Assembly (NCBI RefSeq): GCF_000024625.1
Contig: NC_013407.1
Location: 434,001 to 498,000 of the forward strand
Length of the DNA: 64,000 nt
Direction of reading: 5' to 3'
Source of the DNA: Methanocaldococcus vulcanius M7
GTDB lineage: Archaea; AGJL01; Methanococci; Methanococcales; Methanocaldococcaceae
The position numbers were made by a program, and so were the translations under genes. Shown piece by piece: positions 9,048 to 54,128 of the stretch. The notes beneath the pieces were generated by a model. It searched no databases and was not told the origin of the DNA. It saw only the letters and a program-made list of their open reading frames with translations. Positions within the stretch are counted from its first letter, which is position 1; the number at the start of each line of letters is the position of its first letter.

Positions 9048-9196
9048 ACTATTTTAAAAGGAACGTTTCTCTCCTAAGGGGTCTTATTTTAATCATAACC
9101 ACTTTGAAAAAGTCATCAAAACTTGAAATGTTTCTATTTCATTAGTGGATATAATTTTAATTATATAATGTTAGAGTTTATTTTAATTCTACAGAA

Positions 9197-10230
9197 CTTT
9201 CCATCACAAGACGTGCTGATTTTAATTGTAGTAGAAATACCAAATTCGGATTTTGTTTTGAGAGTTAAGTTTCCATCACGATCCGTGCTGATTTTAACAG
9301 AAAATGACATAGTAATAGTGTCATTATTAGCGTTTCCATCACGACTCGTGCTGATTTTAATTTTTTAGCTTATATTGATTTTTGTAGATAGTAAATTTTA
9401 TAAGTTTCCATCACGACTCGTGCTGATTTTAATCAACATTTAGAATTGGACGACTACGAATTAAAAATTTCCATCACGACCCGTGCTGATTTTAATATTA
9501 AAATATTTGAAAGATTTTTTTAAGACATATGGTTTCCATCACGATCCGTGCTGATTTTAATAAAATCAACTTTTTTCCATAAATCCTACCCAAATTATTG
9601 TTTCCATCACGATCCGTGCTGATTTTAATTCGTTAAATCTATCATATTCTCACATTACCTATTTTAGTTTCCATCACGATCCGTGCTGATTTTAATTCTT
9701 AATTTGTAAAATCCTTGTGCGGTTATGAAGTAGTTTCCATCACGATCCGTGCTGATTTTAATTATAATTTGCATACATAATCTAATTAATATCTTATTGT
9801 TTCCATCACGATCCGTGCTGATTTTAATTCCCTAAATGGACAAGATATTGCTTTTGTATTATGTGTTTCCATCACGATCCGTGCTGATTTTAATCGATCC
9901 CCGACTAAATGAATTACGTATTAGAGTAAAGTTTCCATCACGATCCGTGCTGATTTTAATAATAATATATGAATATAGGTTCGATTATTACAACCCCGAG
10001 AGGTTTCCATCACGATCCGTGCTGATTTTAATCGAGCCCCGAATGAACGAAATAAATATTAGAGCAAGGTTTCCATCACGATCCGTGCTGATTTTAATGG
10101 GAGGTAAATATCTTGAAGAACTTATCAGAAAATAGTTTCCATCACGATCCGTGCTGATTTTAATAGAAAAAATACCCTGTTGATCCAACTGAGTATGTAA
10201 GTTTCCATCACGATCCGTGCTGATTTTAAT
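9197..10230 (-). CRISPR. CRISPR array 1, 16 repeats
   Basis: Sixteen 30-nt repeats separate fifteen spacers of 33-42 nt. On the plus strand the repeat starts GTTTCCATCACG and ends CGTGCTGATTTTAAT; read on the minus strand it ends ATGGAAAC, the usual 5' handle of crRNAs in type I and III systems. Repeats start at 9197, 9269, 9332, 9404, 9467, 9532, 9600, 9667, 9733, 9799, 9865, 9931, 10003, 10069, 10135 and 10201. Degenerate repeats sit at the left (first is mutated in the stem, second ends C, fifth begins A) and a leader lies on the right, so transcription is leftward and the newest spacers are near 10200. Two spacers (9895-9930 and 10033-10068) are homologous to each other. No cas genes are nearby. 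Confidence 0.98.
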
Positions 10231-10580
10231 AGGGTAATTTTTCTTATTTCATTATAATATTTTTACTTATATTTATAGTTTTCCACACCATAATTATCCT
10301 ACCCCCAAATAACCCCTTTTCTTTATAAACCCTATAACAAAATAATTCGAACTTTTATTTAAAAAACAACAATAAATAATTAATAAAAATAAGTAAATCA
10401 AGTAATTAATCGTGGATTTCTAAAAACAACTACAAACAATTAAAAACTCTAAAAAAACTCCATAATTAAATACATCCAAATATACAAAATAATAAAACAA
10501 ACCACTCCTTCAAAATCAACAAAAACCAAATAAAAAACACAAAATATAAACTAAAAACTCAAAAATCAAAAAATAGGAAG
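10231..10580 (-). promoter_or_regulatory. CRISPR leader of array 1
   Basis: About 350 bp of AT-rich DNA next to the youngest repeat is nearly the same as the segment following array 2 (17284-17632): both begin AGGG[TC]AAT, then share TTTCTTATTTCATTATAATA, a CTTTATAAAC block and CGTGGATTTCTAAAAACAAC. A TATA-like TTTATAAA (about 10322-10329) lies 90 nt from the first repeat and would drive leftward transcription. No gene is seen in it. Similarity ends just before the TPR gene terminus at 10601. Confidence 0.85.
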
Positions 10581-10600: not shown

Positions 10601-12061
10601 TTAATGCTCTACTTCCCAGAGCCATGGGAATTGATCTATACCATTAAAGTTTTTGTTTTTCATTTCTTCGTAGAGTGTTTCAGTATCTTTTCTGAAGTAT
10701 TTGTTATATCCTATTAGTTGTTCGTTGTTTGCTAATTCATCTAAGGCCATCTTCAAGTATTTTTGAGCGTTATCATAATCGCCTAATTTTGCGTAGGTGC
10801 ATCCAGTCATAACTGTTCCAAGGAAGTAGTAGTTTTCGTGTGCAATACTTCTGTTTGAAACATTTGGATTATCAACTAAGTATTTGAAGTCCTTTAAAGC
10901 GAGTTCGTAGTATGATTTGTTTCCAGTGTATTTTCCAAGGAAGTAGTATGCTAAGCCCCTCTCATAGTGTCCTACTGGAATATCTGCTGGATAGTCATCA
11001 GCAGGAGGAACCATCATACTTGAGAATCTTATGTTCTCTTTTAAGTGCTTTATGGCATCGTCTAAATCTCCTTTCTTCATATCTACCATTGCAATGTATC
11101 TGTTTGCCTCTCCGTAGTATGGTGAGTAGTCATCTAAATCATCAGATGTTGGGTCTGAATATTTGTTTATGATTAAATTACAGCATTTCATAACTTCATC
11201 GTATTTTCCTAATTGGTAAGCAGAAACAGCTGTTGGCATGTATCCTAAATCCATTGTCCAACCTAATTTTGGACCGTAGTTGTCAACGAACATGTGGCAT
11301 TCTTTGTTTGCAGTTTCATATGTTATTTTTGGATCGTGTAGTTCAGCCAATATAATTGCTGACCAGACAAGGTGCTCAAATGCTGGCCCTTCTGGAATTG
11401 CATATTTTGCCATTGGGTTAACTTTTGGATCTGTTAATTGTGAGTAAGCATAGTATTTGTATGAGTCGTTAAATTCTCCCATTGATAAGTAGGTTCTTGC
11501 AATGTTTGCTAATAATGAAGCAGTTCCTCCTTTTCCTGAAACTCTGTATATATCATCTATTCCTTCCAATGCTTTGAAGTCAGGAGGTAAGACATACTTA
11601 ACTTTGTCGTTGTAGGTGTCGTAGTAGAGGTAGTTTGCTGCTCCTATCAATTCATATCCAAGTGCAGCGTCTTGTGGATCTAAATCCATAAACCTGTGAA
11701 CGCATTTCATTGCTATATCGTAGTATTTCTGTTCATCTGGAAGTCCTGCTTGTATGTATGTTTCGTTTGGATATTTGTCGTAGTGGTAGAAGTGATCTGT
11801 ATTTGCATAAACGTTTGCTTTGTTGTACCATGCCCATGGGTAGTATGGATCTGCCTGTATTGCTAAGTCGAAGTAGTGGTCTGCTAATTTGTAAGCGGAC
11901 ATGTTTCCATCAGCTATTGCCTCTCTTAATATTGGAATTCCTTCGTTTGTGTATTTTGCTGCTAAATATTCTGCTTTATATGTAGTGTATCCATAAACTG
12001 CTAATCCGATCGCTCCGATTATACAGAGTATTCCGATAACGATCTTCGCCGTCTTATTCAT
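10601..12061 (-). CDS. Membrane-anchored TPR-repeat protein
   Basis: I choose the ATG at 12061 (SD GGTGGAT) over an in-frame ATG at 12070. The 486-residue protein has one N-terminal TM segment (about 6-26) and an extracytoplasmic region rich in tetratricopeptide-type helix pairs, such as ADPYYPWAWYNKANVY, ARTYLSMGEFNDSYKYYAYS, AMVDMKKGDLDDAIKHL and CTYAKLGDYDNAQKYLKMAL. Tyr and Asp are abundant and several N-glycosylation sequons occur. TPR proteins usually scaffold complexes. It is the last gene of a minus-strand cluster with a membrane protein, a radical SAM protein and two minipeptides, suggesting an assembly role there (inference). Confidence 0.8.
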   Translation of the reverse strand: MNKTAKIVIGILCIIGAIGLAVYGYTTYKAEYLAAKYTNEGIPILREAIADGNMSAYKLADHYFDLAIQADPYYPWAWYNKANVYANTDHFYHYDKYPNETYIQAGLPDEQKYYDIAMKCVHRFMDLDPQDAALGYELIGAANYLYYDTYNDKVKYVLPPDFKALEGIDDIYRVSGKGGTASLLANIARTYLSMGEFNDSYKYYAYSQLTDPKVNPMAKYAIPEGPAFEHLVWSAIILAELHDPKITYETANKECHMFVDNYGPKLGWTMDLGYMPTAVSAYQLGKYDEVMKCCNLIINKYSDPTSDDLDDYSPYYGEANRYIAMVDMKKGDLDDAIKHLKENIRFSSMMVPPADDYPADIPVGHYERGLAYYFLGKYTGNKSYYELALKDFKYLVDNPNVSNRSIAHENYYFLGTVMTGCTYAKLGDYDNAQKYLKMALDELANNEQLIGYNKYFRKDTETLYEEMKNKNFNGIDQFPWLWEVEH

Positions 12062-12154
12062 TATATCCACCTTTATTAATTTTTATAATAATTAATTTTT
12101 ATTAGTTGTATTGTTGGTTTTGATGAAGTTAATTAAATATAGGAATACTTATAT

Positions 12155-12751
12155 TTACTGTTTCTGCTCGGTAGCAACAGGAACTGTTTTTTCTAAGTTT
12201 ATCATGTTCTTTAAATATCTTCCAACGATTCTTCCGATATAGTCCCCAATAAATCCCGAAACTATCGATAGGATGAATGTTATAACTAACGCTGAAACGC
12301 TGTATCTTGCAGCGAATACATCTGGGTTAAATGCCCAGAATACTGCCCAGTTTATTATAACTGCAACGGGCAATCCAACTGCTCCATTGTATCTTTCAGT
12401 TAGATAACCCATTATGATAAAGGATGTTAACCCAACGATACCGAACCATGGTGGATTTGAGACACCAAACCAAGGACTTGCAATTAAAGCAAAGCAAGCG
12501 ATTAGTGTTGCAGTTAAAACACCGTAGTATTTTCCACAGACCTCTTTTGCTATAACGATCCAAAGTATGTAATAGAACCCTCCGAATAGAACCATCCCCA
12601 AGAATGGGGCTCTTATATGGAACAGATTGTACCATAAACTTTCAATTGAGAATAAACTGCTGAAATACCCTATTAATGCTAAGAAATAAACTATTGCGAA
12701 TTTTGTTAAGTCAGTATAAAGCTTACCATATACATTGTTTGCAGATGACAT
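12155..12751 (-). CDS. Polytopic membrane protein, unknown function
   Basis: The 198-residue protein has about five or six TM segments, with a soluble N-terminus, a loop containing SPWFGVSNPPWFG and a basic region before a short cytoplasmic tail (VATEQKQ). GFIGDYIGRIVGRYL near the C-terminus recalls small substrate-binding membrane components, but I cannot assign a family. The ATG follows SD GGGGTGA and lies inside the 3' end of the radical SAM gene, giving a 29-nt overlap that argues for translational coupling. It sits between the radical SAM and TPR genes. Confidence 0.75.
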   Translation of the reverse strand: MSSANNVYGKLYTDLTKFAIVYFLALIGYFSSLFSIESLWYNLFHIRAPFLGMVLFGGFYYILWIVIAKEVCGKYYGVLTATLIACFALIASPWFGVSNPPWFGIVGLTSFIIMGYLTERYNGAVGLPVAVIINWAVFWAFNPDVFAARYSVSALVITFILSIVSGFIGDYIGRIVGRYLKNMINLEKTVPVATEQKQ

Positions 12752-13568
12752 TGTTTTTCACCCCTTTTATGAAGAGTATGTGTCTTTTTAACATCTCTTT
12801 GTATGTTGAGTTTCTTGCATCTCCAAGTGTGTCATCACTTAAATAGACACATGGAGATTGTAATCCATCGTATCTAACGAACATACATTTTAATAAAACC
12901 CTACAGGGTGTTGTATGTTTTAATGGGAAATACAATGGAATTTGTTTTCCATATTTTTCTTTTATTTGGTTGAAGAAGGTTTTTTCTTCTTTTGGGGTTA
13001 ACCCATATTTTACATCATTATCAACATTGTAAATGTCGAATAACCTGTGGAAGACGATTCCATCGACGCCTAATTCAATAGCTTTTTCTACAATATCCTT
13101 TATTTCTTCTAAATTTTCTTTGAATACGGTTATATCAAAAAATGTGGTTATCGGAACTCCTCTCTTTTTCCTCTCTTCAAGTAGGGCCTCAATATTTTTT
13201 AAAATCTCTTCCTTTCCATCTAATGTAAATATTCCAAATGCGATTTCATCTAATCCACTTTCCAAGACCTCGTCTAATCTCTCTCCAAGTAGTTTTCCGT
13301 TAGTGCATAAACTCGCTTTGACGTTTTGCTGTTTTATGTATTTTACCATTTTAAACAGGTCTGGATGTAAAAAACACTCTCCCCATCCGTGTAAAGCAAC
13401 TTCGTCGAATTCGCTTATTGGGAGTTTGGTAAAGTCCTCATAACTCATATATCCAACTCCCCTTTTCCAGTGTGTCCTCATACATATCTTGCAGTTGCTA
13501 TTACAATCATTGGTTGTTTCAACTTGCAGGATCTTTGGTTTTATCATTGATGTTAAAATCGAAAGCAC
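12723..13568 (-). CDS. Radical SAM protein with C-terminal Cys-rich (SPASM-like) region
   Basis: The 281-residue protein starts at a GTG at 13568 six nt after GGTG; a GTG at 13577 is an alternative with poorer SD. The radical SAM cluster motif C22-x3-C26-x2-C29 (CNSNCKIC) is near the N-terminus, followed by a beta/alpha barrel (FGIFTLDGKEEILKNIEALL). The last 75 residues contain six Cys, including SPCVYLSDDTLGD and a terminal CKQC, as in SPASM auxiliary Fe-S domains of peptide-modifying enzymes. It lies directly downstream of two tiny peptide genes and overlaps the next gene, so the peptides are candidate substrates; this is inference, since other SPASM proteins act on non-peptide substrates. 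Confidence 0.85.
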   Translation of the reverse strand: MLSILTSMIKPKILQVETTNDCNSNCKICMRTHWKRGVGYMSYEDFTKLPISEFDEVALHGWGECFLHPDLFKMVKYIKQQNVKASLCTNGKLLGERLDEVLESGLDEIAFGIFTLDGKEEILKNIEALLEERKKRGVPITTFFDITVFKENLEEIKDIVEKAIELGVDGIVFHRLFDIYNVDNDVKYGLTPKEEKTFFNQIKEKYGKQIPLYFPLKHTTPCRVLLKCMFVRYDGLQSPCVYLSDDTLGDARNSTYKEMLKRHILFIKGVKNNVICKQCIW

Positions 13569-13684
13569 GTCATCCACCGTTATGTCGCTCTATTTTCGAT
13601 ATTACTATTTTCCAAACAATCTTACATATTAATTTTATTTCCATTTCAATTATTAAACACCTGTTAATAAAAAATGAAGATAAT

Positions 13685-13709
13685 AACAGATCCTAATTTA
13701 GGATCTGTT
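13685..13709. terminator. Perfect 12-bp inverted repeat over the stop codon of the 50-aa peptide gene
   Basis: AACAGATCCTAA (13685-13696), one T, then TTAGGATCTGTT (13698-13709) are exact reverse complements. The right arm holds the last three codons and the stop of the 13698-13850 gene; on the minus strand a T-rich tract follows the hairpin. It could end most transcripts after the peptide genes or stabilise their mRNA 3' end relative to the radical SAM gene downstream. Confidence 0.55.
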
Positions 13710-13850
13710 TAATACTGCACTTAAAGTGTCTTTGAATGCGAATAAGACAACTCCGATTATTCCTGCAAACCCTATGATCTCAGCGATCATTAAGGCCTGG
13801 GAGATCATTGTGGCTCCAACGCTTGTAGTTGCTGAAACTGGTGCACACAT
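13698..13850 (-). CDS. 50-residue hydrophobic peptide starting MCAPVSA
   Basis: The ATG at 13850 follows a perfect SD, GGAGGTGAT. The product begins MCAPVSATTSVGATM, has one hydrophobic helix (about 20-38) and ends with an amphipathic segment FKDTLSAVLNRS. It is paralogous in layout to the 52-residue peptide encoded just upstream (MCTPISVTAMGA), both with Cys2, Pro4 and Ser6. If the initiator Met is removed, as expected before Cys, the mature peptide would carry an N-terminal cysteine. No signal peptide or class III pilin motif is seen. The radical SAM gene lies 129 nt downstream. Function unknown; a precursor peptide or small membrane subunit are both possible. Confidence 0.75.
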   Translation of the reverse strand: MCAPVSATTSVGATMISQALMIAEIIGFAGIIGVVLFAFKDTLSAVLNRS

Positions 13851-13916
13851 CGATTATCACCTCCAAAAAATTGTAATTTTGGATTTTTATCGTCCCAGAA
13901 AGAAAAAATTGTAGAT

Positions 13917-14075
13917 TTATTCAGACATTGGGACTTTTGAGATGTTTTCGACTTTTGAGCTAACAAAGCTCCATGCTGAGACCAACATTAATGCAGCTGC
14001 TCCTAAGATGTATGGAAGCATCATTCCGACACTTGGTAATGCTCCCATTGCAGTAACTGATATTGGGGTGCACAT
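13917..14075 (-). CDS. 52-residue hydrophobic peptide starting MCTPISV
   Basis: The ATG at 14075 follows GGAGGTGA. The product begins MCTPISVTAMGALPSVG, has a hydrophobic helix (about 17-37) and ends with a polar stretch SSKVENISKVPMSE. It shares MC[AT]P[VI]S and overall architecture with the next small gene (13698-13850), 66 nt downstream. It is the promoter-proximal gene of the minus-strand cluster: a TATA-like TTTTATATAT lies about 50 nt upstream. I do not recognise the family. Confidence 0.75.
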   Translation of the reverse strand: MCTPISVTAMGALPSVGMMLPYILGAAALMLVSAWSFVSSKVENISKVPMSE

Positions 14076-14122
14076 AGTTTTCACCTCCACAAAGTTTTAC
14101 AATTTGTAAAGTTGACTTTATG

Positions 14123-15916: not shown

Positions 15917-16017
15917 TATTTGATTTTGGAAAAATAAAATAATATATATACAATTCTTTTAGAACTTCTGCCTCTTTTTAATATAGGAGTATAAATTCAA
16001 TAGAAAATCAGATTGCT

Positions 16018-16047
16018 GTTTTTATCCCTTAGAGGGCTGATTTTAAT
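16018..16047 (-). repeat. Decayed CRISPR repeat at the trailer of array 2
   Basis: A 30-nt segment begins GTTTTTATC and ends GGCTGATTTTAAT; 21 of 30 positions agree with the array 2 repeat. A 21-nt stretch containing another GATTTTAAT separates it from the first recognisable repeat at 16069. This looks like the eroding oldest end of the array. Confidence 0.55.
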
Positions 16048-16068
16048 TCTAAAAATTGATTTTAATAT

Positions 16069-17283
16069 CTTTTTATCACGACCCGTGCTGATTTTAATAG
16101 AAATAAAAAGTTTATTAAGGGATAATGGATATAAACTAGTTTCCATCACGACCCGTGCTGATTTTAATAAACGTCATCTAACCATAAAGATGCGTTTCTA
16201 ATCTTGTTTCCATCACGACCCGTGCTGATTTTAATTATTGTCTTTTTTGTATAATTGTATTTTACGAGATCATCTATATCGAGATCTTTGTTTCCATCAC
16301 GACCCGTGCTGATTTTAATCTCTTTTAGGAACTTCTTTATATGCTCATTTTGATAAGTTTCCATCACGACCCGTGCTGATTTTAATTTAATCATTTTGTT
16401 TAACTCTCTCTGTCCATATTTTCAGTGTTTCCATCACGACCCGTGCTGATTTTAATATTTTCACAAAAAAACAAGATGGATACATAACGATGTTTCCATC
16501 ACGACCCGTGCTGATTTTAATTAATCCAGCAAACCCTAACACTTTGAAGCAACAAGCCAACGTTTCCATCACGACCCGTGCTGATTTTAATATTTATTAA
16601 TATTTCGCATAATATCCCTCCTACTGTGTTATTAGTTTCCATCACGACCCGTGCTGATTTTAATTACTGACCCCCTCTATGCAGATATGGTAATGGATGA
16701 AATAGTTTCCATCACGACCCGTGCTGATTTTAATTTGTTCATCCGTTATATATGTATCCTTTATTACTAGTTTCCATCACGACCCGTGCTGATTTTAATA
16801 ACAACAACTTGAACAGTTAATTGATGCAGTTAATAATGTTTCCATCACGACCCGTGCTGATTTTAATTAATCCAGCAAACCCTAACACTTTGAAGCAACA
16901 AGCCAACGTTTCCATCACGACCCGTGCTGATTTTAATATTTATTAATATTTCGCATAATATCCCTCCTACTGTGTTATTAGTTTCCATCACGACCCGTGC
17001 TGATTTTAATTACTGACCCCCTCTATGCAGATATGGTAATGGATGAAATAGTTTCCATCACGACCCGTGCTGATTTTAATTTGTTCATCCGTTATATATG
17101 TATCCTTTATTACTAGTTTCCATCACGACCCGTGCTGATTTTAATAACAACAACTTGAACAGTTAATTGATGCAGTTAATAATGTTTCCATCACGACCCG
17201 TGCTGATTTTAATTAATCCAGCAAACCCTAACACTTTGAAGCAACAAGCCAACGTTTCCATCACGACCCGTGCTGATTTTAAT
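16069..17283 (-). CRISPR. CRISPR array 2, 18 repeats with an internal tandem duplication
   Basis: Repeats start at 16069, 16139, 16206, 16290, 16357, 16427, 16492, 16562, 16635, 16705, 16770, 16838, 16908, 16981, 17051, 17116, 17184 and 17254. They differ from array 1 mainly in the hairpin loop (CACG-ACC-CGTG here, CACG-ATC-CGTG there). Polarity is leftward: the leader is at the right and degenerate repeats at the left. The block of five repeat-spacer units 16492-16837 is repeated exactly at 16838-17183, and its first unit recurs at 17184-17253, so the 18 repeats hold only 11 distinct spacers. The left-most repeat begins CTTTTTATCACG and is mutated. Confidence 0.98.
16492..17283. repeat. 346-bp tandem duplication inside array 2 (2.3 copies)
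   Basis: Five spacers of 40, 43, 40, 35 and 38 nt appear twice in the same order, and the first (starting TAATCCAGCAAACCC) appears three times, at 16522, 16868 and 17214. Copies are identical by eye. The breakpoints fall in repeats, as expected for unequal recombination between repeats. A collapsed or expanded assembly is an alternative. Confidence 0.97.
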
Positions 17284-17632
17284 AGGGCAATCTTTCTTAT
17301 TTCATTATAATATTTTTACTGGTATTTATATTTTTCTACACTATAAGATTTCTACCCATAGATAACCCCTCTTCTTTATAAACCTTTTAACAAAACAATT
17401 CAAACTTTTATTTAAAAAACAACAATAAATAATTAACAAAAACAAAAAACACACTTAATTAACCGTGGATTTCTAAAAACAACTACAAATAATTAAAAAC
17501 TCTAAAAAATCTCCATAATTAAATACATCCAAATATATAAAATAATAAAACAAACCAACCCTCAGAAACCAACTAAAAAACAAATAAAAAACAAAAATCT
17601 AAATTAAAAACCTAAAAATCAAAAAAATAAAA
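17284..17632 (-). promoter_or_regulatory. CRISPR leader of array 2
   Basis: This AT-rich segment next to the youngest repeat aligns along its length with the leader of array 1 (10231-10580), including TTTCTTATTTCATTATAATA, TTTATAAACC and CGTGGATTTCTAAAAACAAC. The TATA-like TTTATAAA would promote leftward transcription of the array. Between here and the ferredoxin gene (17792) there is only unstructured AT-rich sequence. Confidence 0.85.
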
Positions 17633-44104: not shown

Positions 44105-45172
44105 ATGAAAATAAAATTCCTTATAACAGTATTAGTTATCGCTACTATCTTCAGCTCTTACGCATATGAAAAAACTTACGATATATCCCATGTTTTTTAT
44201 TATACGCTAACCTCGGTTAAATTTGAAGAATTTGTAAAAAATGCTGAGATAATTTCTCCTCTAAATGCAAATAACAAAACAATAACAAAAGATACCATAC
44301 TGGTAGGAACACCAAACGATAATCCTCTCATAAAAAAGTATATAGGATTTTTTGAGGTAAAGGTAAATGAAACATATCCTGGGAAAGATAAGGGAGTTAT
44401 AGAAAAACAGATCATAAATGGACATACGGTGGTTATTTTAACGGGCTCAGATATTCAAGGAGTTTATTCATCAATTTTAACATTTGCAAACTTGAATGAT
44501 TTGCCGGATAAACCGATAATATGTGAAACATTCAATAAAGCAGAGATATATGGGATTCCTTCGCTTGATAGTAAGTATTTTAGAAATTTTGTTGAAGATC
44601 ATTTATTGACATTAAAAAATATTGAGGAGGTTAAAAATATATCATATCACCTGAGGGGAGATAATAAAAAAGAAACTGCCGAGAATATTGCAAAATGGGT
44701 AGCGGAGCATGTAAAGTATGATTATGGAAAAGCTAAAAAAATAGAAAATGGAAAATTTGAATGGAAAGATATATATAATCCTCCTTTAAAGACAGTGAAA
44801 ACAGGAAGGGGAATATGTTTAGATTATGCAACATTAACCTCCGCTTTGTTGTTGAATGATAATATAACCCCCTATATTTTAGATGTTTATTTATATAATG
44901 AATCATCTATGCGTTTATCTAAAATAAGTCACGCATCTGTTGCAGTAGAGATTAACAATACTTTCTTTGTTATAGATCAGCAACCAAAATTAATTCCAAT
45001 AAATGAATATACCACTCAAACGTTTGAAGGAAATTTAAAAATTGCAAGTATTGTAATGTTTAAGGTCGTGAAAGAAAGAGATAAGATAAAAATAATAAAA
45101 TATCGTGAAATTCCGGGAGTTGCTATATATGGGGATTTGGTAGAGTTGTTAAATATGAGATTTAATAATTAA
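44105..45172 (+). CDS. Secreted transglutaminase-like protein
   Basis: The 355-residue protein has a signal peptide (1-20). Residues about 185-295 form a transglutaminase-like fold with a complete Cys-His-Asp triad: C238 (GRGICLDYATL), H276 (SHASVAVE) and D291 (IDQQP). It may act as a protease or cross-linker at the cell surface. The N-terminal region about 40-135 contains VGTPNDNPLI and GSDIQGVYSS, as in surface proteins with a subtilisin-like alpha/beta fold. It converges with the pilus-type cluster, overlapping its peptidase gene by four bases. Confidence 0.8.
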   Translation: MKIKFLITVLVIATIFSSYAYEKTYDISHVFYYTLTSVKFEEFVKNAEIISPLNANNKTITKDTILVGTPNDNPLIKKYIGFFEVKVNETYPGKDKGVIEKQIINGHTVVILTGSDIQGVYSSILTFANLNDLPDKPIICETFNKAEIYGIPSLDSKYFRNFVEDHLLTLKNIEEVKNISYHLRGDNKKETAENIAKWVAEHVKYDYGKAKKIENGKFEWKDIYNPPLKTVKTGRGICLDYATLTSALLLNDNITPYILDVYLYNESSMRLSKISHASVAVEINNTFFVIDQQPKLIPINEYTTQTFEGNLKIASIVMFKVVKERDKIKIIKYREIPGVAIYGDLVELLNMRFNN

Positions 45173-45924
45173 CCAAACATTACCAACTTTAATAAATCAA
45201 ATATTATGGGTTGAGGATAAAGCATATAGATAATGTATGAGATGCAGATAAATACCAAAAATGGAAGTTGTGGAGTTGCCCAAACTTCTCCTTTATAAGT
45301 TTTTTCCTCTTCTTCATTTATTTTTGGTAGTAGGGAGAGGTTTTCATCGTCTCCCATAATTGTTTCAAATTTTTTAACATCTTTTATGTCTTTTTTTATG
45401 GCAATAAGCAATAAAGGAAAATGTTTCAATTTTAATTTTTTATAATTCCCCTTTTTTATATTTGTTAGTAAAATAACTACACAGTAGGGAATAACAAATA
45501 TTATTGCATTTAAAAATATAACAAAAGTAAAGATCAGGCCTTTTAAATAACTAACTCCCATTAAAAATTTACAATCCCCTCCTCCCATAAGATTTGCATA
45601 ATATAAAAAAATTCCAATTATATAGAATATTAAAAATGATAGTGCAAAATAAGATTTAAATAAAAAAGCAGATATTATAAATAAAAAAATTCCACAATAT
45701 CCAATTTTGCTAAATCTTTCAAATTTAACAGAAATAGTTATTAAAAAAATTGCAAGAACTTCAATAAAAAACACTAACAAATTGCTTAAACCATATAAAA
45801 CGTGTATAAAAGCCCCTATCCACAACATAGACAGCCATAAGAAATCATTCACCTCCCTCTTTTTCCAATCTTCAAATGCCCCATATATTGAGCAAATTAG
45901 CCCATAGATGTATCCTAAATCCAT
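45169..45924 (-). CDS. Prepilin peptidase, A24/GxGD aspartyl type
   Basis: The 251-residue polytopic protein has the two catalytic Asp of the family: D19 in YGAFEDWKKREV and D117 in MGGGDCKFLMG. Such enzymes (FlaK, EppA) remove class III signal peptides from archaellins or pilins. It is larger than FlaK because of a cytoplasmic insertion at about 175-220. It lies at the 3' end of a nine-gene minus-strand run of pilin-like and assembly genes, so these are its likely clients. The ATG follows GGTGAAA. Confidence 0.87.
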   Translation of the reverse strand: MDLGYIYGLICSIYGAFEDWKKREVNDFLWLSMLWIGAFIHVLYGLSNLLVFFIEVLAIFLITISVKFERFSKIGYCGIFLFIISAFLFKSYFALSFLIFYIIGIFLYYANLMGGGDCKFLMGVSYLKGLIFTFVIFLNAIIFVIPYCVVILLTNIKKGNYKKLKLKHFPLLLIAIKKDIKDVKKFETIMGDDENLSLLPKINEEEEKTYKGEVWATPQLPFLVFICISYIIYMLYPQPIIFDLLKLVMFG

Positions 45925-45948
45925 TATTTCACCAAAAGTTGTTTTAAT

Positions 45949-47106
45949 TTAATTTATATTCCAACTCTGATATTCAAAAAGATTATTTGAAGAGGAGTAA
46001 AACATTCTTGGGTTTGTTATAAGAATATCTGCCAAAACAAGCCCTTTTGAGGATATACCTTTTTGTGGAGCGTAGATGGTTATGTTATGGCAGAAATTTC
46101 CATCATGTAATGAAACATAAAGTGTTGGAGGATTTCCATATATAACGTTAAAATAATTGTTTTTGCATGAATTGTTTAAAATGATATAAGATGTGTCTGT
46201 AAAATTGTTTATAGTTTCATTAAGTTTATGGATAAAAAGCACATCTGAATAATTATTTAGTAAAATAATGTATATTGGTGGCTTTGTATCGTTAAATATG
46301 AAATTTTCACTTTTATTTATGGTTGTGCTGTAATTTTTATACTGACTTTTGACATACATCATTCCAGAAAAACTTCCGTTTATGGATATACTTACATATG
46401 TGTTGTTTGTATAACTATCAAAATATCCACTTGCATTTACACACGAAATATTTTCCATTAGAGAGTTGTTAAAGGCATATTTTGCCATTATAAAAATGAC
46501 GAAGTTTCCTTCTTTTGATACATTCAGAATACAATAATATAGATGGACATATGAAATATTAGAACTGTTATATATGGTTTTATTAACAACCAAATTTCCA
46601 AAATTATCATAAACAAACACATTGGTATAGTTTCCAGTTATATTGCAAATTCCAGTAATCGAGTTATTGTTTGGGATATATATGGGGATGTTATCTTTAA
46701 ATTGATAATTTGAAATGTTTAAGCTTCCGTTAAATGCTCCTCCAAATCCATAATTTGAGGCATTATAAAAAAAAGTTCCATTATTCAATAAGAAGTTGAA
46801 TGTTAAGTTTTTTGCCTCATATGCGATCGTTGAAGATAGTATCTTTCGATAGTTGATCTCAACCCCCTCATCCTTATAATTATTTTTTAGAATATATAAA
46901 TTTTTACTTAGATTTGAGTTTGAATTTAGAGAACTTATCAAACACATCTTTATGGAATTTTTGACATCTTTCATTTTGAATGCCATTAGATAGGAATTAT
47001 CAGATATGTTAGAACTAAATCCAAGTAAGAAAAACAGTATTAATCCTATAGATAAGATAACCGCTCCAATTATAAAAAATTGACTTTTTTTGTTCATCTC
47101 CACCAT
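45949..47106 (-). CDS. Pilin-like surface protein with N-terminal hydrophobic helix
   Basis: The 385-residue protein starts MVEMNKKSQFFIIGAVILSIG: a short basic leader, then a single hydrophobic helix, as in class III or type IV pilin-like proteins. The remaining 350 residues are beta-rich with more than twenty N-x-S/T sequons, implying heavy N-glycosylation outside the cell. It overlaps the preceding gene by 13 nt. I infer a minor pilin or pseudopilin of the adjacent assembly system. Confidence 0.7.
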   Translation of the reverse strand: MVEMNKKSQFFIIGAVILSIGLILFFLLGFSSNISDNSYLMAFKMKDVKNSIKMCLISSLNSNSNLSKNLYILKNNYKDEGVEINYRKILSSTIAYEAKNLTFNFLLNNGTFFYNASNYGFGGAFNGSLNISNYQFKDNIPIYIPNNNSITGICNITGNYTNVFVYDNFGNLVVNKTIYNSSNISYVHLYYCILNVSKEGNFVIFIMAKYAFNNSLMENISCVNASGYFDSYTNNTYVSISINGSFSGMMYVKSQYKNYSTTINKSENFIFNDTKPPIYIILLNNYSDVLFIHKLNETINNFTDTSYIILNNSCKNNYFNVIYGNPPTLYVSLHDGNFCHNITIYAPQKGISSKGLVLADILITNPRMFYSSSNNLFEYQSWNIN

Positions 47107-47462
47107 AGTATCAACCTTAATTTATAGAAATTTACCGAAGAGTTATTTTCAAATATAAAATTTCGTTCAACAACAACGCCCTCTTCTTCATTGGAATATA
47201 TTAACTCTCCATTTTTATAGATCTCAAAACCATAACCAACATTACTCGGTAGTTTGATTTTCCTATAAAGGGAGGAGACGTTTTCAAAATCACTCTCCTC
47301 AATATGTGCTGAATATAATGCGTTATATCCAATAAACTCCAAGGAAGAGTTGTAATTAAAATTTTGAGACATTATCAAATAAGAAAAAACCAAGATAATC
47401 ATAATACAGGCAACAGTTGCTTCTAAAATTCTAACAAAGCCAGATCTATTTTTAGGAATCAT
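47094..47462 (-). CDS. Small pilin-like protein
   Basis: The 122-residue protein begins MIPKNRSGFVRILEATVACI: a basic leader, a Gly-Phe junction, a Glu shortly after and then a hydrophobic helix, close to a type IV prepilin signal. The mature domain is beta-rich with sequons. The start overlaps the stop of the gene upstream (ATGA). It is probably a minor pilin processed by the peptidase at 45169. Confidence 0.7.
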   Translation of the reverse strand: MIPKNRSGFVRILEATVACIMIILVFSYLIMSQNFNYNSSLEFIGYNALYSAHIEESDFENVSSLYRKIKLPSNVGYGFEIYKNGELIYSNEEEGVVVERNFIFENNSSVNFYKLRLILWWR

Positions 47463-48013
47463 CGTCCCACATCTAATACTCCATAGTATTTAATAGAGAT
47501 GTTTTTATTTTTATCAACCACACAAAATGGAATTTCAAAGATCTTATTACAAAAAATATGAGGGAATGTCTTATAATGTATTGTATAGTTTTTTGGATAG
47601 AGTATCTCTATGTTATTAAATTCTTCCTCTTTATATTTTGCAGATATGTTGTAATGCCCAATTATTTTTAAAAGTTCTTGATTTTTTGTGATTATAAACT
47701 CGTCTTTTGTTGGAGAATATGCAATAATATATGAACCATTCAAATTCTCAAGTGTTTTTATTAAATTCCTGCTTTCAGATGAGTTTTTAACTATAAAACC
47801 ATCAATTACATAATCTATCTTATTAACTTTAAAATTGAAGATTAGATCTCCCTTTGAAATTGAGAAATTATATTTTAGATCGTCATAATACATTAAAAAT
47901 TCTTTTCTTGTATCTTCAACATCATAAACACTGTGTAAATTAACGGCCTCAGTTATAATATAGGCAGATACTATCAAGAACATAGCAGTGGCAAGTAAGT
48001 AATCCAGTTCCAT
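47459..48013 (-). CDS. Pilin-like protein of the assembly cluster
   Basis: I use the ATG at 48013 (MELDYLLATAMFLIVSAYI), which follows GGGGGAT and starts right after the tadC-like stop. The 184-residue protein has an N-terminal hydrophobic helix with a Glu/Asp-containing start and an extracellular domain with several sequons and two Cys (FCNKIFEIPFC) likely disulfide-bonded. Function is inferred from context. Confidence 0.68.
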   Translation of the reverse strand: MELDYLLATAMFLIVSAYIITEAVNLHSVYDVEDTRKEFLMYYDDLKYNFSISKGDLIFNFKVNKIDYVIDGFIVKNSSESRNLIKTLENLNGSYIIAYSPTKDEFIITKNQELLKIIGHYNISAKYKEEEFNNIEILYPKNYTIHYKTFPHIFCNKIFEIPFCVVDKNKNISIKYYGVLDVGR

Positions 48014-48014
48014 T

Positions 48015-49748
48015 TTATCCCCCGATGTAGAGTTTAAAGAGCATATATCCAACAATTAACATCAGTAGTATATGTTTTATCCCTGCGATTACTGACCTTT
48101 CAGTGAGTATTCCCAAGGAAGCTCCAGAGAAAAGTGCATAGATAAGCACTCCTTGGAATAAATAACTCTTGTAAAACTCAATGCCTAAACCCCCATGAAC
48201 GTTCTTTAAAAGTGTAGGGAGGAGAGAGTGAATCATTATATATGAGGTTCCAAGATAGAGAAAAAAGGAGAGGTAGATAACAACTACGTATATAAATTGC
48301 CGTGCACTTATCTCCCTCTTCATTTCACTTAACTTATATGCATGAACAGTTACTGATGTTAATATATCTTTTATATCTCCACCAGAGACGGCACATTCTT
48401 TTAGTATTGAAGCAATTCTTTTTGCGATTAGAGATTTCTCTGTTCTCTCCAGGTCTTCAAATACTTCATTTACTGGCCTCCCCCACGACATCTGAATTGC
48501 CATCTTTTTAACGATCTTTGTTAAAGGTCCATAGTTGGTTTTTGCACAAACCTGCATTGCTCTAATTATATCCATCCCACTTCTCACAGCCATTGTTAAA
48601 TCGTTTAAAAAGATTGGATAATATTTTTCTTTCTGATTTTCAATAATAAAATGCCAATAGCTTGTTAAAATAAAAGGCAAGATCAAGAATAAAATTCCAA
48701 ACATTAGAAAATCGGTTCCATGAAACATAAATAGGGACTTTCTAAGGAAGAACAATATAAAAAATACAATAGAGAGCATCCAAAGAAACAATGTAATAAA
48801 ATGAACTGGCTTCCATTTAAATTTCATCTTTATGCCTTCTATTTCTGGCTCGTCAAATTCTTTCAAAATATCTAATAGGGAGACGTTTAATTTAAAATCT
48901 TTTGGTAGGATTCCATATACCAATCCCATAAATATTATTGATGCTATTGGAACCCATAGATAAAAAGTTAAAGGGAGGAGATTTGGATTTCCAAACATGG
49001 ATGCACTTTGTAGGATTGCACTGATCGATGAAGCTACTGGAACAGTCATTACAACGAAGAGAGGGATCATACCACAAGCAATTACATAAAATTCAGACAG
49101 TATCTCAACTTTTTCAATTGCTTCCAACAACTCCAACTTCCTATCTTCCATCAATCTATCATATATCTCGTGAAAGATATTTTTCATCTCTGCTCCAACG
49201 ATTAACGAGGCGACAATGTTATAATAAACAGATGATAACTTTTTACTTGGTGTTATTCTTGCTCTTCTTAAAAATGTTGTTATAATATCATAATTAAACA
49301 CTTTTGTGTCTTTAACGATTTCTTTTGCCTCTTCACTCATCCCTCCATAAATATCTTCCTTTGACAGGGATGTGAAGATCTCCACCACAGGAATGTTTGC
49401 TGATGAGAGTGCAGAGATAAATGCAAATGCATAGGGTAAGTTTTCATCGATACTTTTTGCTTTTTCTTCGGCTAAGACATAGGGATATAAAACTCCCACG
49501 AGAATAACAATAAAAACTCCCCCAATTAAGGCAAAGATCGCGTAAAGTATATTAAATATTATTAAAAATATAATAAATAATATAAATCCCACTATTATGG
49601 CAGTTAAAAATACAACTGGTAAGTACGTGGAGGAAACTGCCTTTACTCCTGCTTTTAATAAGATTTCATCAAATTTCTCATCCTCTATTTTAAAGAGCTT
49701 CATAGCCAATTTATAATACTTTAACTTTAAATTGGCAAAAAAATTCAA
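48015..49748 (-). CDS. TadC/GspF/ArlJ-like pilus assembly membrane protein
   Basis: The 577-residue protein contains two type II secretion F-type domains, each a cytoplasmic helical bundle (about 100-200 and 380-480) flanked by TM pairs, eight or nine TM in all. MAVRSGMDIIRAMQVC and CAVSGGDIKDILTSV are typical. This is the platform protein that couples to the ATPase encoded just upstream, two nt away. The double-domain form is usual for archaeal TadC-like proteins. Confidence 0.87.
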   Translation of the reverse strand: MNFFANLKLKYYKLAMKLFKIEDEKFDEILLKAGVKAVSSTYLPVVFLTAIIVGFILFIIFLIIFNILYAIFALIGGVFIVILVGVLYPYVLAEEKAKSIDENLPYAFAFISALSSANIPVVEIFTSLSKEDIYGGMSEEAKEIVKDTKVFNYDIITTFLRRARITPSKKLSSVYYNIVASLIVGAEMKNIFHEIYDRLMEDRKLELLEAIEKVEILSEFYVIACGMIPLFVVMTVPVASSISAILQSASMFGNPNLLPLTFYLWVPIASIIFMGLVYGILPKDFKLNVSLLDILKEFDEPEIEGIKMKFKWKPVHFITLFLWMLSIVFFILFFLRKSLFMFHGTDFLMFGILFLILPFILTSYWHFIIENQKEKYYPIFLNDLTMAVRSGMDIIRAMQVCAKTNYGPLTKIVKKMAIQMSWGRPVNEVFEDLERTEKSLIAKRIASILKECAVSGGDIKDILTSVTVHAYKLSEMKREISARQFIYVVVIYLSFFLYLGTSYIMIHSLLPTLLKNVHGGLGIEFYKSYLFQGVLIYALFSGASLGILTERSVIAGIKHILLMLIVGYMLFKLYIGG

Positions 49749-49750
49749 TT

Positions 49751-51370
49751 TTAATCACCTTTTTGCTCTTTATACTCGCATATTCTTTTAACAAATTCTT
49801 CAAAATCTGGCTTTTTTTCACTTAGATCTTTTAAAAATTCAGCTCTTTTATAGAGTTCATTTATTATCTCCTGCTCCGAACTTCCAATAAACTCTGCAAT
49901 TCTTTTTAAAAGATAACTCTTTCCTGAAAATTTGAATGTATCTGTTTCAGGATCCCACCAAAAAACATCATGCAATATAATATCATCAATATTTGGGTCA
50001 TATTCAACGATCTCTGTTATGGATTTAGTTCTTCTGACAAATCTTTCTTTATAGATTAATCGAATTTGCATACATATTGCATTTAGTTGTTCAAGCATAA
50101 TTTTTGGAATGTTCATTGGCTCAGCGTTCAATCTTCTTATAACGGCCTCTGGTGATTTTGCATGTATTGTTGATAAAGCAAGATGTCCTGTTGTTATTGC
50201 TTGAAATAGTATCTTCGCTTCCTCTCCTCTGACCTCTCCAACGATTAAATAATCAGGCCTCTGTCTTAAAGCAGCTTTTAACAGATCCATCATGGTTATC
50301 TCGTATTCTTCTCCTCCAAAACCACTCCTTGTTGTTCCAGCGATCCAGTTTTCGTGATACAATCTGATCTCTGGTGTATCTTCAATAGACACGATCTTCA
50401 TTTGAGGAGGAATAAAAAGAGAGAATGCATTTAGAAGGGTTGTTTTTCCAGTGGCGACTTCTCCGGCAACCATTACAGAGTTCTTGTATTCTATAAGCAA
50501 CCAAAGGTATGCGAGCATCTCTGGAGAGATACTTCCGTATCTTATCAGGTCGGTTGGCAAAATAGGCGTGTGTGTAAATTTTCTTATTGTGAAGGTTGAT
50601 CCAAATCTTGAAATGTCTTTTCCAAGGGTTACGTTTAACCTACTACCATCTGGAAGTGATCCATCTACTATTGGATTAGCCAGTGTTAAGGATTTTCCAC
50701 ATCTTTGAGCCAAAGATATACAAAAAGAATCCAATTCCTCATCGGTTTCAAATTTTATATTGGTTTTTAGATGCTCATATTTTCTGTGAAATACATAAAC
50801 CGGTTTTCTTACACCAGTGCAGCTAATATCTTCTAAACTTTCATCTTTCATTAGGGCATCGATTTTTCCATAACCAAGTAGATATTTAACTAAAAAGTAA
50901 ATTAATTTGTGTTTTGTTATTTCGTCAATTGAAAGCTTTAAATCATCAAAGATCTCTTTAATTTTTTCTTTTAAGTAATCTTCTAATTTTTCTTTATCTA
51001 TCTCCTCAACAGGAACATCTAATAATACCTGCACAACTTTTCTTAATTTTAGAAATAACTCGATCTCTTCTTTTGTTAATATTGGTTCTACAACAATGTA
51101 TTTTTTTATTTTCTCAACTTTATCATATCCAATTACAATATCTGCCATTCCAATTGCTTTTTTTTCATATATCTCTAAGTTTTTTATCTCCTCATAGACC
51201 TCTTTTAATATATCGATATAATCTTCCCCGTAATCTGGTTTTTTTACGGGTTTTTTTGATAAAACATCTTTTATCCCTATATTTTTATTTTTTAGGTTTA
51301 TCTTGCTGTTTATATTGTTAATCAAATCCTTTATTTCCTTTATATTTAGATTTTTTAAGTTTTTTTTCAT
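49751..51370 (-). CDS. TadA/GspE-type pilus assembly ATPase
   Basis: The ATG at 51370 follows AGTGAT; a GTG at 51379 overlaps the upstream stop. The 539-residue ATPase has a Walker A AGEVATGKTTLL, an Asp box near IVSIEDTPEIRL, Walker B DYLIVGEVRGEEA and the His box TGHLALSTIHAKS. It is the hexameric motor that drives filament assembly or secretion through the TadC-like platform encoded downstream. Confidence 0.92.
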   Translation of the reverse strand: MKKNLKNLNIKEIKDLINNINSKINLKNKNIGIKDVLSKKPVKKPDYGEDYIDILKEVYEEIKNLEIYEKKAIGMADIVIGYDKVEKIKKYIVVEPILTKEEIELFLKLRKVVQVLLDVPVEEIDKEKLEDYLKEKIKEIFDDLKLSIDEITKHKLIYFLVKYLLGYGKIDALMKDESLEDISCTGVRKPVYVFHRKYEHLKTNIKFETDEELDSFCISLAQRCGKSLTLANPIVDGSLPDGSRLNVTLGKDISRFGSTFTIRKFTHTPILPTDLIRYGSISPEMLAYLWLLIEYKNSVMVAGEVATGKTTLLNAFSLFIPPQMKIVSIEDTPEIRLYHENWIAGTTRSGFGGEEYEITMMDLLKAALRQRPDYLIVGEVRGEEAKILFQAITTGHLALSTIHAKSPEAVIRRLNAEPMNIPKIMLEQLNAICMQIRLIYKERFVRRTKSITEIVEYDPNIDDIILHDVFWWDPETDTFKFSGKSYLLKRIAEFIGSSEQEIINELYKRAEFLKDLSEKKPDFEEFVKRICEYKEQKGD

Positions 51371-51375
51371 ATTTA

Positions 51376-51750
51376 TCACTCTACATCCACTAAGTAGGTG
51401 TTATTTATCTTTTTGGCTGAAATTTTGGAGATCTCTGATGAGCAGATTCTTTTTTTGAAAATGATGTTATTATCAAACCTATGAATGTAGGTTTTATTTT
51501 GATAGTATATGATAAAAGAGGCATTTTCAAATAGTACTTTACAGTTTAATGGTATTTTTACAAATAAGGTAATATTTCCTTCATTTGATAAAATCAAGGT
51601 ATTGAGGATTTCTGAGGTTATTTTTTTGTCTATCTTATCAACATATTTATATTCACTTATGTTAATTAAATCTGAATAGATATTTGCTACAAAAATTATC
51701 AGCAGTATTGAGGAAGCGATAAGTAGTGTTGATTTAAGTATGATGTGCAT
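51376..51750 (-). CDS. Small pseudopilin-like protein
   Basis: The 124-residue protein has an N-terminal hydrophobic helix (about 5-24) directly after a short leader MHIILKS, then a beta-rich domain with sequons and two Cys. Its stop abuts the ATPase gene and its start is one nt from the next upstream gene. Part of the pilus-like operon; exact role unknown. Confidence 0.68.
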   Translation of the reverse strand: MHIILKSTLLIASSILLIIFVANIYSDLINISEYKYVDKIDKKITSEILNTLILSNEGNITLFVKIPLNCKVLFENASFIIYYQNKTYIHRFDNNIIFKKRICSSEISKISAKKINNTYLVDVE

Positions 51751-51751
51751 A

Positions 51752-52249
51752 CTATCCCATTACTAAATTATATATATAAATCTTTGAGTTATTAGGATAA
51801 AAGTATCTCACTGAGCCAGAATAGTTGATTGAAATATTGCCTCCGAAGGTATAGGAATTCTCTCCAAGATACTCAATATACAAAACCTTATTCGAAAAAG
51901 ATGTAATATTATACAGGAAAATATACAGAGTGTCTCTTTCCATATATAGATCATAATCTACTCCCTCAATTGTGGAAATATTAAATGACATTTGATTTGT
52001 TGTATTGGATATATCTACATGACAATTTATGAGTTTAATATTATCTATATCAACGTCTCTTTTAGATCCAACACCACTACTGATTATATTCTTTATTATC
52101 TCTTTTATTTCATTAGATTGCAATGTTTTTTGTGTTTTAGAAACTTGTCCTAAGGCAAAATCTATTAAATTAGATCCCCACTCATAGGCCATAATAGAAA
52201 ATACAAAAAGAGACATTATTACTAAAATTGTAGAGATGTATGTGTTCAT
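51752..52249 (-). CDS. Pseudopilin-like protein
   Basis: The 165-residue protein begins MNTYISTILVIMSLFVFSIM, a hydrophobic helix, followed by a coil (LGQVSKTQKTLQSNEIKEII) and a beta-rich domain with sequons. The start is one base from the stop of the 308-residue gene upstream. Placement argues for a minor pilin or an accessory of the assembly machine. Confidence 0.68.
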   Translation of the reverse strand: MNTYISTILVIMSLFVFSIMAYEWGSNLIDFALGQVSKTQKTLQSNEIKEIIKNIISSGVGSKRDVDIDNIKLINCHVDISNTTNQMSFNISTIEGVDYDLYMERDTLYIFLYNITSFSNKVLYIEYLGENSYTFGGNISINYSGSVRYFYPNNSKIYIYNLVMG

Positions 52250-53176
52250 TTATCTCCCCTTTTTACTAAGATATATTGCCAATCCAATAATTCCAAACCC
52301 AGCAATTATTCCAAAAAATACCACTAAATATGAGTATGGAAATTGATTTTTTGGGTTAGATTGATTATCTAAAATAATAACATCATCAATCGTTGATTTA
52401 AAAAATTTAACATATAAATGAGGTTCTACAAGATAGGCGGTAGAGTTTGAAATAAATATATCGTATTTTTTATTAAATGTGAAATTTCCTTTATAATTTT
52501 TTATAAGATAAGAGGATCCGTTATCTTTAATCGATGTAATATTTATTATTGCATATCCGAAGAAGTTTGAAGTGTTGAAGAACTTGGTATGATGAATTTC
52601 ACAAATGTTAGAAATATTTGTCAAATAAATTAAACTTACAAGATTTTTACTTGTTTTGTTGTATTCTAAGATATATTTCCCATTCGTTTCAGCTAATTTA
52701 TTTTCTGCAAGAATTAATACTTTTATATTTTCTGGAGGGCTTCTCAATCTAATTGATCCTCCAAGCGTTCCAACGTAATCTTCTATCACTGGTATCGTTA
52801 TATTTAGGGTGTTATTTATTTTAGAAATGCTAAAATTGTAATAAAACAAAACAGATTGTGATGTATTTTTATATAACAAGTTTGAATAATTATACCCATA
52901 TATTTTTTCATATAGGATAATTCCTGCAGATTTAACACAGTAAGGGTTGCCTGTTCCGTTTATGATGTCTTTAACATATGCAGTATCATTTTTTACGAGG
53001 ATATAAAGATACTCATTATAGGGGATTAAAGCTTCGTTTTTATAGGAATGGTTAAGAGTTAGGTTATAGCTGATATTTTCTCCAGTTAAATTTTTTGAGG
53101 AATTTTCAAAGGCCACGATATTTGATAGAATTAACAAAAACATAATACATGTAATACATAAATATTTAATTTTCAT
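52250..53176 (-). CDS. Surface protein with signal peptide and C-terminal TM anchor
   Basis: The 308-residue protein has a signal peptide (1-22), a beta-rich extracellular region with about 20 N-glycosylation sequons and a C-terminal TM (about 282-302) with basic cytoplasmic tail LSKKGR. This topology differs from the pilin-like neighbours and suggests a membrane-tethered accessory. It lies in the same tight run. Family not recognised. Confidence 0.7.
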   Translation of the reverse strand: MKIKYLCITCIMFLLILSNIVAFENSSKNLTGENISYNLTLNHSYKNEALIPYNEYLYILVKNDTAYVKDIINGTGNPYCVKSAGIILYEKIYGYNYSNLLYKNTSQSVLFYYNFSISKINNTLNITIPVIEDYVGTLGGSIRLRSPPENIKVLILAENKLAETNGKYILEYNKTSKNLVSLIYLTNISNICEIHHTKFFNTSNFFGYAIINITSIKDNGSSYLIKNYKGNFTFNKKYDIFISNSTAYLVEPHLYVKFFKSTIDDVIILDNQSNPKNQFPYSYLVVFFGIIAGFGIIGLAIYLSKKGR

Positions 53177-53194
53177 AAGATCACCTTTTTACTT

Positions 53195-53917
53195 TTAACT
53201 GATTTCAAACGTTATTTTTTTATCAACTTCTCCGTATTTTGTTGAAGCCACGATTTCAAAGATTAGAGTATTTGGAACCTTAGTATGGTTTATGAGGATG
53301 TAGTAGGTTATATCTTCCTTTGAGTTTCCATTTAAGAAAAAACTTTTAGAGGGGCAGTTTAAATCAATTAAATCCAGTAAATTTGAAGTATTTATAGGAG
53401 TTCCGTTAGATGATGATGCATAGTATAATCTACCTTCTTCGTCATAGAATTTCATTGATGAAGAATAAGTTGTTCCATTGAAAAAGATGTACTGTCCGCT
53501 ATAATTGTAGGGCTCTCCATCTCTATCCAGAAGTTGGTTATGATTATTTTCGTCGATATTTACAGAAGCCCAAGAGATGTTTGGGGTTAAACAGTATACT
53601 CTTGTATTTATATACATACCATCATCGATATTATTAATAAATTCCAGTTTTATTGCTTGAATAAATCTCTCTTCAGGGTTGTTTTCAATTTCAGAATCAG
53701 AATTTAGATCAAGATTTGTGAAATAATATGTTTGAATTGTAGAGATCTCAATTGGCTTTATAAAACTTCCAATCGATGCATCTATTGTTGGAGTTATCTT
53801 TTCAGTGGTTCCTTTAAATACATCATTACTCCAAGCATAGTATGCCGCTCCGATGACTATTGCCGTTCCTATGAGTAATAACATTGTAATTATTAATGAC
53901 ATTCCTGACTTGTTCAT
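53195..53917 (-). CDS. Archaeal type IV pilin-like protein, first gene of the cluster
   Basis: I start at the ATG at 53917 (MNKSGMSLIITMLLLIGTAI) preceded by GTGGTG; the ORF could extend to 54001 but without an SD. The 240-residue protein has the short leader plus hydrophobic helix of archaeal pilins and a beta-rich domain with sequons and DRDGEPYNYSGQYIFF. Divergent transcription from the 1046-residue gene across 211 bp suggests a shared regulatory region. Confidence 0.75.
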   Translation of the reverse strand: MNKSGMSLIITMLLLIGTAIVIGAAYYAWSNDVFKGTTEKITPTIDASIGSFIKPIEISTIQTYYFTNLDLNSDSEIENNPEERFIQAIKLEFINNIDDGMYINTRVYCLTPNISWASVNIDENNHNQLLDRDGEPYNYSGQYIFFNGTTYSSSMKFYDEEGRLYYASSSNGTPINTSNLLDLIDLNCPSKSFFLNGNSKEDITYYILINHTKVPNTLIFEIVASTKYGEVDKKITFEIS

Positions 53918-54128
53918 AATAAACACCACTAAGTTTATGTAAGTGTTTGTGTATATTTGTGATAAAATAAATTTTATAATATTTAAGATTATCTTAACCA
54001 TAAAAATATTTCCATAAAATTTTTAGGTATTTGATTATTAGGGTATGATGTTTTAAAAATACGTGAGATGTTAAAGCATATATACTCTATTAATTGTATT
54101 ACAGTATATAAAATTAGGGGCAATTATT

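Follow-up and report, generated by a model that had tools for sequence, protein, structure and literature searches.

Why are two hydrophobic peptides of 52 and 50 aa encoded next to a radical SAM protein, a polytopic membrane protein and a TPR protein, and what could such a set of genes do? The locus lies in a 64,000-nt stretch of Methanocaldococcus vulcanius M7 DNA (NC_013407.1, 434,001–498,000)—hereafter the window, in whose positions all coordinates are given. Its five genes share the minus strand and are transcribed in the order pepA, pepB, radical SAM, MEM, TPR. pepA (13917–14075) encodes a 52-aa membrane peptide starting MCTPISVTAMG; it bears the Shine–Dalgarno sequence GGAGGTGA and, upstream, the TATA element AACTTTTATATAT. 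pepB (13698–13850) encodes a 50-aa membrane peptide starting MCAPVSATTSVG (MCAPVSAT), bears the same Shine–Dalgarno sequence, and immediately precedes the radical SAM gene (12723–13577; 284 aa). The latter overlaps by 29 nt with the gene of the polytopic membrane protein MEM (12155–12751; 198 aa), an overlap also seen in Methanococcales relatives and in family f9 of another phylum. The TPR protein (10601–12061; 486 aa) carries an N-terminal hydrophobic anchor after Lys residues, followed by TPR repeats. An initial annotation had described this gene set with the same order, strand, overlap and Shine–Dalgarno sequences, and all of these were found in place.

Both peptide genes are real and not products of chance, given that they are the only two of 183 ATG open reading frames of 40 to 75 aa in the window that start with MCxP, and that four comparisons gave dN/dS values of 0.12, 0.07, 0.35, and 0.05. 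Hence, both peptides are under purifying selection. Across all cassette loci, Cys2 and Pro4 are found in 63/63 distinct peptides; the consensus reads M-C-A-P-V-S-V-T-A, with conservation declining beyond about residue 9. The conserved N-terminus is followed by a hydrophobic stretch of ∼19 residues (mean Kyte–Doolittle value of 2.1) carrying small-xxx-small patches. No entry in Pfam or NCBIfam matched these peptides. The TATA-like element upstream of pepA stands out best in the window, L028, L029, and L031, and the start of the radical SAM gene bears no ribosome site comparable to that of the peptides, which suggests that the peptides may be abundant and the enzyme scarce. The pepA leader also holds the palindrome TTTACAAATTGTAAA—a possible operator—at 14096–14110 of the window and at 6297–6311 of L026. 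At up to one mismatch, 0.12 matches are expected in the window; among the loci checked, the palindrome stands upstream of pepA only in the window and G007.

The initial annotation had proposed a check of whether the peptides always co-occur with this radical SAM and TPR gene. Separate searches for each of TPR, peptide, radical SAM, and MEM in 36 Methanococcales genomes found all four parts in the same six, with one cassette per genome, and none in the other 30, apart from two marginal TPR-only matches. The TPR gene ends the cassette in the window, G007, and G008 but opens it in G011, G023, and G029. A broader search with TPR reached into another archaeal phylum, where the adjoining DNA encodes the same radical SAM protein, MEM, and MC-peptides, and peptide, MEM, and TPR searches extended the cassette to two families of that phylum, f9 and f136. 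These HMM searches ran on models built from the same family. Matches in f144, f149, and f150 were discarded, since they begin only at position 6 of the model and extend across stop codons, and a contig search with one cassette protein returned only a near-identical MAG. The resulting locus set—again 36 genomes, here over all groups, mostly fragmented MAGs in which many contigs end inside the cassette—holds the radical SAM gene in 35, MEM in 26, TPR in 24, and FmdE-domain genes in 18 genomes; in some genomes, the TPR gene is absent or located elsewhere. Of the 37 radical SAM genes whose upstream sequence is readable, 35 are immediately preceded by a peptide gene on the same strand, and in the two exceptions (L145 and L146) the peptide genes are found elsewhere in the same cluster. 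Searches of viral contigs, phages, and plasmids returned no relative that would indicate such an origin. That the cassette is real and conserved is, in our judgement, practically certain; this and the other likelihoods expressed for the cassette, maturation, complex, and metal are judgements with no calculation behind them.

Membership of the enzyme in the radical SAM superfamily is clear from its PF04055 match (48 bits, gathering threshold 29.5). Among 11 aligned members, C25, C29, and C32 of the CxxxCxxC core are invariant, as are C225, C243, C279, and C282 of the short SPASM-like tail, and the chain ends in Trp. The SPASM match of the window protein (PF13186, 17 bits) stays below the cut-off of 21.5, and no curated NCBIfam cut-off is reached. 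The closest NCBIfam models are metalloenzyme-maturase radical SAM families, all scoring far below cut-off: W_rSAM_matur (TIGR04317) and rSAM_Geo_metal (TIGR04311) are the best matches for cassette enzymes of all three groups and have the core and part of the tail in common with them, but against the W_rSAM_matur cut-off of 380 bits the window protein reaches only 112.8 and the cassette enzymes 87 to 124, and no recurrent aldehyde oxidoreductase gene adjoins the cassette. In PADLOC, only the radical SAM core (residues 21–116) matches viperin models, weakly, and no known anti-phage system was found. MEM has no relative in Pfam, NCBIfam, or PDB sequences, and a PDB profile search was likewise empty; as a candidate ECF S-component (CbiM, PF01891), it gave no Pfam match. 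Structures modelled from single sequences for MEM and the radical SAM enzyme are of low confidence (mean pLDDT of 56 and 60). A full-text literature search, whose coverage leaves out most subscription papers, returned no description of the cassette. Among the curated families, solved structures, and papers covered, we found none that describes this system. The proposal of a candidate new system is well supported by the co-occurrence of its parts, the pairing of peptides and enzyme, and the lack of any NCBIfam assignment; neither peptides spread widely without the radical SAM gene nor an enzyme belonging to a known small-molecule pathway was encountered. In G023, the radical SAM gene is split by a frameshift at a seven-A run (L029, 8600–8700); a genuine lesion, programmed frameshifting, and a sequence error are all conceivable causes.

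We favor the reading that the locus is a mobile archaeal membrane-peptide maturation cassette with a metal-handling complex, and give this explanation as a whole a probability of roughly 40%. Its first step would be the action of the cytosolic radical SAM/SPASM-like enzyme on the M-C-[AT]-P-[VI]-[SA]-x-T segment of both peptides, most likely with a modification at or around Cys2. The fixed N-termini and the constant pairing with the radical SAM gene favor the peptides as substrates, and the enzyme probably does act on them. The peptides would then insert as single transmembrane helices beside the polytopic MEM. Net charge ahead of the hydrophobic stretch is zero in 52 of the 63 peptides, while the charge behind it is positive in 59; by the positive-inside rule, this predicts an N-terminus on the outside. 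The same rule places the TPR part outside as well, with a cytosolic N-terminus ahead of the Lys-preceded anchor. The conserved peptide ends and the TPR domain might hence meet on the outer membrane face and pair there. A direct TPR–peptide partnership is also favored by the modules of L145 to L147, as in L146, where each of three peptide genes immediately follows a TPR gene. A complex of the peptides with both TPR and MEM is somewhat less assured than the modification, though we still lean toward it.

In these f136 loci (L145–L147), the peptide family is expanded as tandem TPR–peptide gene pairs, and the expansion includes a distinct type of peptide, 56 aa long (MCAPISVAVGG), encoded next to a PD40 beta-propeller protein. 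Beyond its cassette copy, G023 has a lone TPR paralogue (L030, 8388–9761); a transporter set of the molybdate/tungstate type (SBP_bac_11/BPD) follows ∼1.4 kb downstream.

Single helices with small-xxx-small patches, always accompanied by a radical SAM enzyme in anaerobic archaea, would also suit a role as small subunits in a membrane complex for redox reactions or energy conservation; the enzyme would then install a redox group or a cross-link, with TPR and FmdE as assembly or partner proteins. The resemblance to metalloenzyme maturases, distant as it is, points in the same direction. However, neighbor clustering shows no recurrent oxidoreductase subunit beside the cassette, and we regard this alternative, the best of the competing ones, as improbable.

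Slightly less probable still is a secreted or membrane-active peptide pair of the RiPP type, an archaeocin or a signal, for which MEM would act as exporter or confer immunity. A precursor gene beside its modifying enzyme, as expected for a RiPP, is what the 35 of 37 upstream peptide genes represent, and patchy occurrence with horizontal transfer as well as two unlike peptides per locus—comparable to two-peptide bacteriocins—fit this picture. Short peptide genes likewise lie directly upstream of a radical SAM/SPASM-like enzyme in the AlbA/subtilosin, PqqE/PqqA, mycofactocin, and PapB ranthipeptide systems. In contrast to these, the cassette peptides are of a single-helix membrane type in which the N-terminus is the best-conserved part and the helix is variable, with no boundary between leader and core; the cassette adds TPR and MEM, and neighbor clustering reveals no recurrent peptidase or peptide-export ABC gene, while its scores stay far below the respective cut-offs. 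The single cassette per Methanococcales genome also speaks against a RiPP, for which a large anchored TPR protein would moreover be an unusual partner.

For the preferred reading of peptide maturation coupled to metal handling, the neighborhood of the cassette provides the clue to the second half. The FmdE-domain genes (PF02663) adjoin the cassette in 18 of the 36 genomes, across all three groups; in the other half, the window's own genome included, none adjoins it, and FmdE genes are entirely lacking from five f9 genomes. Within 2.5 kb, FmdE was observed in 6 of 19 genomes versus 0.19 expected from copy numbers (P = 1.3e-8); these genomes had been selected through homology to the peptides or to TPR, FmdE was singled out only once the loci had been read, and independence of the genomes is approximate. 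FmdE binds Zn/Ni via two His and two Cys, and metal-ion transporters adjoin most FmdE genes in a published survey (PMC2954224); some members of the family are cytosolic zinc-finger types, whereas others are secreted. CbiM and CbiQ for nickel/cobalt uptake adjoin the cassette in G042, G395, and G472. The neighbors in G395 further include CbiX-, NifH-, and CobB-family genes (CfbA/CfbC/CfbB-like), as in F430 synthesis, a DUF4198 gene, and—by eye—a family-5 binding protein resembling the SBP_bac_5 gene confirmed in L145. Mcr/F430 as a common theme was ruled out, as the f9 genomes with the cassette (by MEM; n = 10) and those with McrA (n = 5) are disjoint.

The complex would accordingly in our proposal bind or pass on a transition metal, with nickel or cobalt the likeliest candidates, and an extracytoplasmic FmdE-domain metal-binding protein would often take part; against a firm choice of metal stand the molybdate/tungstate-type neighbors in L029 and L030. 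MEM has no invariant Cys or His and is hence not obviously a metal carrier. In HypA, nickel is bound by the Met1 amine and His2 (PMC5557546), so that a free Met1 amine together with residue 2 can serve as a nickel site. HypA and the CbiM/NikM ECF transporters, like the cassette peptides with their M-C-x-P, have a metal-ligand residue right after Met1, but theirs is His where the peptides have Cys; the likeness to M-H-x-P of CbiM (MHIPDG in L042) is an analogy only and implies no homology. Metal handling by the cassette is a tentative assignment. More speculative, and on balance unlikely, is the specific picture of matured Met-Cys-X-Pro ends as an outward metal site, held by TPR and fed by FmdE, which would make the cassette a peptide-based device for metal acquisition or relay.

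Least probable of all is that the enzyme makes a small molecule or cofactor used by a MEM–TPR complex with the peptides as unmodified structural subunits: its core weakly resembles MoaA, NirJ, HpnH, and W_rSAM_matur, and the G395 cassette sits among tetrapyrrole/nickel genes, yet no conserved small-molecule pathway gene recurs in neighbor clustering, while the peptide gene is the constant upstream neighbor of the enzyme.

MCxP peptides and MEM represent two families outside Pfam and NCBIfam that accompany a radical SAM enzyme in three archaeal groups. Should the peptides prove to be modified, this would be a new use of radical SAM chemistry, namely on transmembrane peptides, and the fixed N-terminal motif points to where the modification should be sought. 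Handling of nickel or another metal by the complex, if it occurs, would bear on the supply of scarce metals in methanogens and related archaea.

The radical SAM and MEM trees agree in departing from the relationships of their hosts: G011, of the window's genus, falls among genomes of a different Methanococcales family, and G451 is placed away from its own genus. Hence, radical SAM and MEM are transferred horizontally as one unit. In the window, the cassette is flanked by two CRISPR arrays with near-identical repeats (9192–10239 and 16017–17284), which could have served as recombination sites for its gain; the second array holds a tandem duplication of repeats and spacers of ∼346 nt. Farther away, at 45169–54001, a type IV pilus-like cluster can be recognized by eye from prepilin-peptidase-like, TadC-like, and secretion-ATPase-like open reading frames.
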